Of a stretch of DNA of 64,000 nucleotides, positions 6,496 through 50,542 are shown piece after piece. The notes under the pieces were generated by a model, which was not told the DNA's origin, ran no database searches, and worked only from the letters and a program-made list of their open reading frames with translations. Numbering within the stretch: position 1 is the stretch's first letter; each line of letters opens with the position of its first letter. Both the position numbers and the translations under genes were made by a program. The stretch comes from SAR202 cluster bacterium (GTDB taxonomy: Bacteria; Chloroflexota; Dehalococcoidia; Lucifugimonadales; UBA2962): contig VFGV01000010.1 of NCBI GenBank assembly GCA_009392275.1, forward strand, positions 62,001 to 126,000, in the 5' to 3' direction.

Positions 6496-6506
6496 ATTTT
6501 TCTCCC

Positions 6507-6535
6507 AAAAAAAATCCCGACTTGCAAGTCGGGAT
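6507..6535 (-). terminator. Intrinsic terminator/attenuator between L10 leader and rplJ RBS
   Basis: Perfect 22-nt palindrome ATCCCGACTTGCAAGTCGGGAT (6514-6535) followed on the minus strand by eight T residues (6507-6514). Confidence 0.85.
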
Positions 6536-6573
6536 GTCCATCATAAACAATTACAACAAACTTACTTCAACTT

Positions 6574-6628
6574 GCCTCGGTAGGTAATATTATTCTGATA
6601 AATTACATCAGGACCGACTGTCTCAGGC
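6574..6628 (-). ncRNA. Ribosomal L10 leader (L10-binding autoregulatory element)
   Basis: Minus strand gcctgagacagtcggtcc...attacctaccgaggc between rplA and rplJ, resembling the L10_leader family core (GCC..AGACAG... CCUACCGAGGC). Confidence 0.8.
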
Positions 6629-6644
6629 TAATCTATTTAACTAA

Positions 6645-7364
6645 TTATAAATCATTTCCTTTTATTTCGCTCATAGCCGCTGTAGAAAGCGGAGTACTGG
6701 GGCCCATGGTGCTAGTTAAAAACGCAGATTGTATAAAGTCCCCTTTTACGCCTGACGGCCTTGCACGCACAATATGATCAACAACCGACGATATGTTCTC
6801 AATCAGTTGCCCTTCATCAAAGCTTGCCTTGCCTACCACAACGTGGATTATCGATGTTTTATCTAACTTGAATTCCACTCGCCCCTTCCTTGCATCATTA
6901 ACCGCTCTGTCTATATCTTCCAAAGCCACAACGGTACCAGTCTTAGGATTAGGCATTAACCCTTTTCTACCTAAAACCTTACCTAATTTACTTACCTTGC
7001 CCATCATATCTGGCGTAGCTATGGACACATCAAACTCTGCCCATCCACCTTCAATTTTTTTTATTAATTCATCGTCTCCAATATAATCTGCACCCGCAGA
7101 TTGAGCAATAGACACACCCTCGCCTTGAACAAAAACTGCGATTTTAACAATCTTTCCATTACCATTAGGTAGAGGAGCAACGCCTCTTACCTGTTGATCA
7201 GCGTGACGCGGATCTGCAGACGTGCGCAAATGCAACTCAATCGACTCATCAAATTTGCTGGTTGCAGTAGCTTTTACTTTCCCTACAGCCTCTTGAATTG
7301 AATACTGTGAATCACGATCAATTAATGCCGTTGCAGAATTATATCTTTTCCCATGCTTACTCAA
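6645..7364 (-). CDS. rplA: 50S ribosomal protein L1
   Basis: GRKGLMPNPKTGTV signature. Confidence 0.97.
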   Translation of the reverse strand: MSKHGKRYNSATALIDRDSQYSIQEAVGKVKATATSKFDESIELHLRTSADPRHADQQVRGVAPLPNGNGKIVKIAVFVQGEGVSIAQSAGADYIGDDELIKKIEGGWAEFDVSIATPDMMGKVSKLGKVLGRKGLMPNPKTGTVVALEDIDRAVNDARKGRVEFKLDKTSIIHVVVGKASFDEGQLIENISSVVDHIVRARPSGVKGDFIQSAFLTSTMGPSTPLSTAAMSEIKGNDL

Positions 7365-25914: not shown

Positions 25915-25931
25915 CCAAAATGTATTCTCGG

Positions 25932-26026
25932 CGGGAGTGCGAGGGAGTCGAACCCACCGTTCCAGCCGAAGGGCCGGAGCCAACGATTTTGAAGATCGAG
26001 GAGCCCACCAGGACCCATTCACTCCC
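25932..26026 (-). tRNA. selC: tRNA-Sec(TCA)
   Basis: 95 nt; acceptor GGGAGTG/CACTCCC; anticodon stem-loop CGATCTTCAAAATCG (TCA); long variable arm GGCTCCGGCCCTTCGGCTGGAACC-type; T-arm GGTTCGACTCC. Confidence 0.93.
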
Positions 26027-38534: not shown

Positions 38535-39893
38535 ATGAATGATTTCAGAAAAATACCTAGTGTCGATCGGATTTTAAGCGAGCCGTCGATAAAAGCACTG
38601 TTAGACTCATATTCTCACGACAGTGTAGTTAAACTTGTTCAACAAAATGTGGAAAACTTAAGAAAAGATATTAAGTTAGGTAAACAGATCATTTCTTTTA
38701 AACAACTGATAAATAACATCGAAATATCTATGTCCCAGAATTGGCTGATTCAACCTAGTCCCGTAATCAACGCATCAGGAGTAATCTTACACACTAATTT
38801 AGGTAGATCTCCACTTTCAAATGAATCAATAGAAGCTATTGTTAATAGTGCTGGCGCCTATACGGATCTCGAATACGAACCCAAGACAGGAAAAAGAGGT
38901 AATCGACAACGACATGTACAGAACCTGATAAAACACATCACAGGAAGTGAGTCGGCATTAGTTGTCAACAACAATGCAGCTGCAGCGTTACTTTCATTGA
39001 CTGTGATAGCAAAAGGTAAAGAAGTGATTGTTTCCAAAGGTGAATCGGTAGAAATCGGTGGAAATTTCAGGATACCAGACCTACTTAACCAGAGTGGAGC
39101 TGAATTAATAGAAGTAGGCACCACTAATCGAACATATTTATTTGACTACGAAAAATCGATAAATGAGAATACTGGAGCGATTCTCATAGTCCATCCTAGT
39201 AATTTTAAAAAAATAGGATTCACTCATAGCCCACCCGTTAAGGAATTGGTTGAACTTGGACATCATCATAATATACCTATATTAAATGACTTAGGAAGTG
39301 GGACTTTTATAGATACCACAGTATTTGGATTGAATTCCGAGCCAACCGTGCAGGCAAGCATTAAGTATGGAGCAGACCTAACCTTCTTCTCTGGAGACAA
39401 GCTGCTTGGAGGGCCACAATCTGGAATAATCCTTGGGAGCCAGGTGTTAATAGATGAACTATCACGTCACCCCCTGGCTCGAGCGTTAAGAATAGACAAA
39501 CTGAATTTAACTGCCCTACACTCCACACTAATGCACTATATAAGTGACGAACATCTATCACAAATCCCGATATGGTCCATGATTTCTGCTGATCTCACAG
39601 ATATAAAAAAACGAGCAACCGCTTGGATAAACAACACACAAATCAAAGGACAAGTAATTAAGTCTAATAGCACAATTGGTGGCGGTAGTCTGCCAGGAGA
39701 AGTATTAAACACTTATGTGCTTGCAATTGAGCCAGAGACGTCTACAGCAAACAAAATTTCAGCCGAGCTAAGATCGTATAAAACGCCGATTATCGCAAGA
39801 ATTGAATCAGAACAAGTACTGCTGGACGCGCGAACGGTGTTGCCTACTCAAGATAACATCATTATTCAAGCACTTAAGGAAATTACTACATAA
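38535..39893 (+). CDS. selA: L-seryl-tRNA(Sec) selenium transferase
   Basis: IPSVDRILS, INASGVILHTNLGRSPLS, FFSGDKLLGGPQSGIILG. Confidence 0.95.
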   Translation: MNDFRKIPSVDRILSEPSIKALLDSYSHDSVVKLVQQNVENLRKDIKLGKQIISFKQLINNIEISMSQNWLIQPSPVINASGVILHTNLGRSPLSNESIEAIVNSAGAYTDLEYEPKTGKRGNRQRHVQNLIKHITGSESALVVNNNAAAALLSLTVIAKGKEVIVSKGESVEIGGNFRIPDLLNQSGAELIEVGTTNRTYLFDYEKSINENTGAILIVHPSNFKKIGFTHSPPVKELVELGHHHNIPILNDLGSGTFIDTTVFGLNSEPTVQASIKYGADLTFFSGDKLLGGPQSGIILGSQVLIDELSRHPLARALRIDKLNLTALHSTLMHYISDEHLSQIPIWSMISADLTDIKKRATAWINNTQIKGQVIKSNSTIGGGSLPGEVLNTYVLAIEPETSTANKISAELRSYKTPIIARIESEQVLLDARTVLPTQDNIIIQALKEITT

Positions 39894-49415: not shown

Positions 49416-49486
49416 ATGTTTTTACCTCCCCAAACTTAAACCGATTTTATATGATTATAGCGATATAAAAAGGGAGAGTGCGTACA

Positions 49487-50542
49487 TTGTCAAAAACTGG
49501 TCATGAAATTCGTTTAACTCAACTAACCTCGTCTGCTGGTTGAGCTGCTAAATTTAGCTCAGAACGCCTGGTGCAGGTACTGCATCAATTACCTAAATTA
49601 AATAACCCATCTCTATTGACAGGAATTCATTCACGTGATGATGCTGCTGTATACAAGTTAGATGAAAATACTGCTATCGTACAGTCAGTGGATTTTTTTC
49701 CTCCAAATGTAGATGATCCTTTTACCTATGGAGAAATAGCTGCAGCTAATGCAATAAGCGATATATATGCTATGGGTGGAAAGCCAATTTTTGCACTAAA
49801 TATAGTTTCTTTCCCTGACAATTTACCAAATGCAATACTTAACGATATTATTGCCGGAGGGTCATCCAAAGCTACAGAGGCAGGGATGTTGATTGTTGGT
49901 GGGCACACTATAAAGAATGATGTTCCGATATATGGATTATCAGTTACAGGAACCATTAAACCCGGTAGTGAAATTTTAAATTCCTCTTGCCAAAACAATG
50001 ATTTACTATTGCTTACAAAACCCATTGGATCAGGCATAATAACTACTGCCGCAAAATCCGATGCTGTTAATAAAGAATCACTGAATCAATGTATAAACAT
50101 TATGAAAACCCTCAATAATAAAGCATCTGATGCAATGATTAAATCGACAATAAATGCCTGCACTGACATAACTGGTTTTGGGTTGATAGGGCATATATTG
50201 GAAATGACTCAAGATAGCGAGTTAATGGCAACTATCAAGCTAGATAATGTGCCCATCATGGATAACGCCTACGAAGCTGCATTGGCTGGACATGTACCAT
50301 CAGGAACAAGAGAAAACTTGAGAGCTTGTGAGAAATCAGTTGAATGGGCGTCAAATATAAGTTTAGAAAATAAACTAATTCTTTGTGACGCACAAACATC
50401 AGGAGGCCTAGTGATCTCAGTGAGTCCTGACAACCTCGACAACCTCGTTAATAAATTAAAGCAAAACGGGATATCTGACTATGCAATCATCGGTGAAGTA
50501 AATTTACGTAAAGACGCTTCAACGCAAATCATAGTAAATTAA
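49487..50542 (+). CDS. selD: Selenide, water dikinase (selenophosphate synthase), selenocysteine-containing; UGA at 49541-49543 read as Sec
   Basis: TTG start at 49487 after agggag RBS; reads LSKTGHEIRLTQLTSSAG-U-AAKFSSERLVQVLHQLPKLNNPSLLTGIHSRDDAAVYKL..., in frame with the 49571-50542 ORF; Sec falls at the catalytic Cys/Sec position of SelD. Confidence 0.93.
49539..49578 (+). promoter_or_regulatory. Candidate bacterial SECIS element of selD
   Basis: Hairpin GTT/GAGCT-gctaaattt-AGCTC-ag-AAC includes the UGA; second hairpin CCTG-GTG-CAGG at 49567-49577 has its loop 27 nt after the UGA. Confidence 0.5.

Follow-up and report, generated by a model that had tools for sequence, protein, structure and literature searches.

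The selD gene described here almost certainly is an ordinary, intact gene whose in-frame UGA codon is decoded as selenocysteine (Sec). It lies in a 64,000-nucleotide stretch of contig VFGV01000010.1 from a SAR202 cluster bacterium, referred to below as the window. The original prediction, made from the letters of the window, had proposed a Sec-containing SelD, and that proposal is now supported by the family match of the read-through protein, by conservation of the codon, by a hairpin following it, by the Sec machinery of the genome, and by other selenoprotein candidates. Such proteins are already established: Sec is encoded in 19% of the SelD genes detected in reference prokaryotes, always at the same position as in the window's gene (PMC4561486), and few marine selenoproteins are as widespread as SelD (PMC2398784). 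The window's selD is therefore an added member of a known group, in an uncultured Chloroflexota lineage. In the literature collection that we searched, we found no report on SAR202 and selenoproteins.

The selD reading frame extends upstream through an in-frame TGA

The selD frame runs from a TTG codon to the stop codon TAA at 50540-50542, and its sole interruption is one TGA (Table 1), exactly as the original prediction had read it. The mechanical list of open reading frames places the start of the gene at GTG 49571, a truncation that had also been pointed out and that we reproduced with a plain ORF lister. When the TGA is read through, the translation agrees with the one proposed, with Sec as residue 19 if the TTG is counted as 1, and the AGGGAG named earlier as the ribosome-binding site is found about 10 nt before the TTG. 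Each of the four genus members in which selD was found retains the TTG start, a purine run resembling a Shine-Dalgarno sequence, and the TGA, and the RLTQ...SSAG segment is likewise conserved within the genus. Over codons 1 to 18, the window's gene differs from that of its closest relative (L010) by three synonymous and no nonsynonymous codon differences, and from that of L011 by three synonymous and one nonsynonymous. Because these differences are mostly synonymous, the stretch 5' of the TGA must be coding. A lack of upstream conservation in close homologues had been named as evidence that would count against a Sec-containing SelD; within the genus, the upstream stretch is conserved instead. 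Downstream of the TGA, the remainder of the 351-residue frame is intact.

TABLE 1 Features of the selD locus, the Sec machinery, and other selenoprotein candidates (positions refer to the window unless a contig is given)
Feature	Position	Strand	Basis
selD, selenide water dikinase, 351 aa, one predicted selenocysteine, TTG start	49487-50542	+	Frame reading, family match, genus comparison
In-frame TGA, predicted Sec19, motif SSAG-U-AAK, in the place of catalytic Cys17 of E. coli SelD	49541-49543	+	Alignment, conservation
Shine-Dalgarno-like AGGGAG, ~10 nt 5' of the TTG start	49471-49476	+	Sequence; purine-rich in 4/4 genus members with selD found
Bacterial SECIS-type hairpin, 8-bp stem (49569-49576/49580-49587), loop GUA (49577-49579), 33 nt after the UGA	49569-49587	+	RNA folding, homologue comparison
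tRNA-Sec (selC), anticodon TCA	25930-26026	-	ARAGORN; Rfam RF01852, 59.7 bits at 25933-26026
selA, L-seryl-tRNA(Sec) selenium transferase	38535-39893	+	TIGR00474, 536 bits at G000:C10:100544-101881; ORF
SelW-like selenoprotein candidate (Rdx, PF10262), YCVP-U-DY, L186	G000:C11:127598-127915	-	Rdx 66 bits; cut by TGA
AhpC-TSA/TlpA-like selenoprotein candidate, WASW-U-AC, C-terminal TPR-like part, L176	G000:C8:87028-87762	+	TGA at redox Cys
Membrane-anchored thioredoxin, selenoprotein candidate, YSDY-U-VGC, L203	G000:C22:68457-68945	-	TGA at redox Cys
DsbA-like selenoprotein candidate, FHDYI-U-PFA, L207	G000:C22:145931-146755	-	TGA at redox Cys

The read-through protein belongs to the SelD family

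An alignment to SelD families with the TGA read as U had been suggested as a check. The read-through protein gives a full-length match to the family, scoring 363 bits against TIGR00476 (cut-off, 125; residues 9 to 316) and 338 bits against PRK00943 (cut-off, 299), and the catalytic sites align on the TGA. The family's catalytic Cys or Sec with a conserved Lys three positions further on (G-C/U-x-x-K) is present as AG-U-AAK, compared with AGCGCK in Escherichia coli. The best match of solved structure is E. coli SelD (PDB 3u0o; 231 bits), whose catalytic AGCGCK aligns with AGUAAK of the window's protein; it has Cys where the window's SelD has Sec, and at +2 it has another Cys, for which the window's SelD has no counterpart. 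Aquifex aeolicus SelD (PDB 2yye/2zod; 196 bits) is a more distant relative; its crystallised chain carries Cys at the catalytic position, and the SSGCAAK of that chain lines up with SSAGUAAK. Bacterial Sec-containing SelD proteins share the family, the position of the Sec, and a hairpin just 3' of the UGA with the window's gene, and no functional difference from them is visible, the window's member being distinguished by its origin in an uncultured Chloroflexota order.

The TGA codon is conserved throughout the order

Our comparison of selD covered 60 genomes from the order, among them the one that contains the window. Exactly one internal stop, a TGA, is present in each of the 46 full-length SelD genes, and in all 30 of the order's selD loci that were read it occupies the codon of the catalytic motif. 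The GTDB genome set supplied 80 more distant loci, whose catalytic codon is TGC (40 loci), TGA (26 loci), or TGT (14 loci), and the in-frame TGA of the window thus aligns with Cys or Sec in homologues. The original prediction had singled out TGC or TGT in relatives, together with reads supporting a base error, as counterevidence; these codons are seen in the more distant homologues, and the order loci that were read all have TGA. In a broader sample of the class, nearly all the SelD matches listed contain a single TGA, and a few among them lack any stop (e.g., G247, G253, G276, G225, G215, and G089). Taken with the conservation within the genus, the counts for the order rule out chance and leave very little likelihood of either a base error or gene decay.

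A SECIS-type hairpin follows the UGA

In the bacterial SECIS consensus, which supplied our rules for distance and loop, the hairpin lies shortly 3' of the UGA and a G opens its loop. Folding of the region, another check that had been proposed, revealed a hairpin of 8 bp, located 33 nt after the UGA and with GUA as its loop. The hairpin overlaps conserved codons, and we compared its strength with that of synonymous-codon shuffles keeping the encoded protein, in 110 homologues (56 Sec forms and 54 Cys forms). The mean z score was 1.84 in the Sec forms and 0.13 in the Cys forms (Mann-Whitney P = 2e-12, a value that is indicative only, because the homologues are related and not phylogenetically independent). 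Register 33 held a stem of 5 bp or longer in 28 of the 56 Sec forms and in 1 of the 54 Cys forms, and the positions of this stem were paired in 83.9% of cases in Sec forms versus 52.3% in Cys forms. When the stem was slid by 1 to 3 bases, pairing in the Sec forms dropped to 27 to 49%, and several of its pairs show changes on both sides among these forms. As judged by these comparisons, the hairpin is stronger than coding constraint would produce, and Cys forms hardly ever have it in this register.

Among the related Sec forms (L009 to L118, 20 to 40 nt after the Sec codon), the hairpin loop occurs in at least three registers, at distances of 20, 27, or 33 nt from the UGA, and the hairpin therefore seems to move within the gene.

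The genome encodes Sec machinery and other selenoprotein candidates

The genome encodes tRNA-Sec, SelA, and SelB. The first two genes lie inside the window, and selB is on another contig (G000:C20:21293-23137). The genus retains the gene order tRNA-Sec, selA, selD, in which the starts of selA and selD lie about 11 kb apart. Across the order, selA, selB, and tRNA-Sec all score above their cut-offs in 41 of the 46 genomes with selD, and the remaining 5 have two of the three; in five other genomes (G020, G031, G034, G045, and G057), these three genes and selD are jointly absent, which agrees with a Sec-containing SelD. As a point against it, two order genomes (G032 and G040) have selA, selB, and tRNA-Sec, and selD was not found in their assemblies, which are about 94 to 95% complete; incomplete assembly may account for the missing gene, or the gap may be real. 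An ordinary ribosomal protein L10 leader (RF00557) was also noted in the window, at 6499-6645 on the minus strand.

In a non-exhaustive scan of the whole genome for coding frames running on past a TGA, we recovered SelD and four convincing candidates with TGA at a redox Cys (Table 1). The idea that SelD is the genome's only selenoprotein was rejected on the strength of these candidates. A plain ORF caller would cut at least these four likely selenoproteins, just as it drops the catalytic residue of SelD together with the 28 N-terminal residues. Sec in SelD is near-universal across the class, a pattern that annotation pipelines not handling Sec would hide.

Alternative explanations for the in-frame TGA

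An assembly base error replacing a true TGC or TGT would be a natural concern with a single draft genome of 23 contigs, but the 46 order genes with TGA come from separate assemblies, the codon sits at the catalytic motif in the 30 order loci read, and the Sec forms have in common a hairpin that is missing from Cys forms in that register. We regard such an error as extremely improbable. Hardly any weight can be given, either, to a true start at GTG 49571, yielding a shortened product that lacks the catalytic residue, or to a decayed Cys form. That start is the one given by mechanical ORF calling, but in the genus codons 1 to 18 change mainly synonymously, and RLTQ...SSAG is conserved there along with the TTG and its Shine-Dalgarno-like run; decay is opposed by the intact remainder of the frame and by conservation across the order.

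A third possibility, that TGA has been reassigned to a standard amino acid or is read by a near-cognate tRNA, found no support and has a negligible chance of being correct. TGA closes 210 of the 970 long open frames in the 1.53-Mb genome and therefore remains an ordinary stop codon there, the genome carries a tRNA-Sec gene whose anticodon is TCA, and the site is occupied in TGA-free homologues by Cys rather than by Trp or Gly.

With decoding of the UGA as Sec as the preferred reading, expression of the gene would follow standard SelB-dependent recoding. SelB carrying Sec-tRNA-Sec would be recruited by the hairpin just 3' of the UGA, yielding an active 351-residue selenophosphate synthetase in which Sec19 replaces the catalytic Cys17 of E. 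coli SelD. This enzyme would convert selenide and ATP to selenophosphate, which SelA would use to form the Sec-tRNA-Sec needed for SelD itself and for the other candidate selenoproteins, at least four in number. Sec insertion, the enzymatic activity of SelD, and any selenium feedback on its production are steps that we infer from sequence.

Residues flanking the Sec

The original prediction had described Ala-Lys after the Sec as less common than Cys-Lys. This did not hold for Sec forms, in which Ala or Ser before the Lys is the rule: 51 of the 56 collected have no Cys at +2 (GUAAK, GUASK, or GUAGK), making the window's AAK typical of them, and 53 of the 54 Cys forms do have Cys at this position. 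The association of Sec with the absence of Cys at +2 is strong (Fisher P = 2e-24), but the pattern needs only about five changes on the tree, and we therefore do not claim it as a product of selection; it may reflect shared ancestry.

At -3, a Cys (CAG-U, giving CxxU) is present in all 26 loci read from relatives in the order but outside the genus (L013 to L038), whereas the window's genus (L009 to L012) has SSAG-U. Lacking Cys at both -3 and +2, the selenol of the genus SelD might conceivably work without a local thiol partner, its recycling might differ from that of its relatives, and UGA decoding might render SelD synthesis dependent on the enzyme's own product, a speculative proposal that we consider rather unlikely. 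Of single-domain marine Sec-SelD proteins, only about 5.6% are reported to have the CxxU arrangement of these order relatives (PMC2398784).
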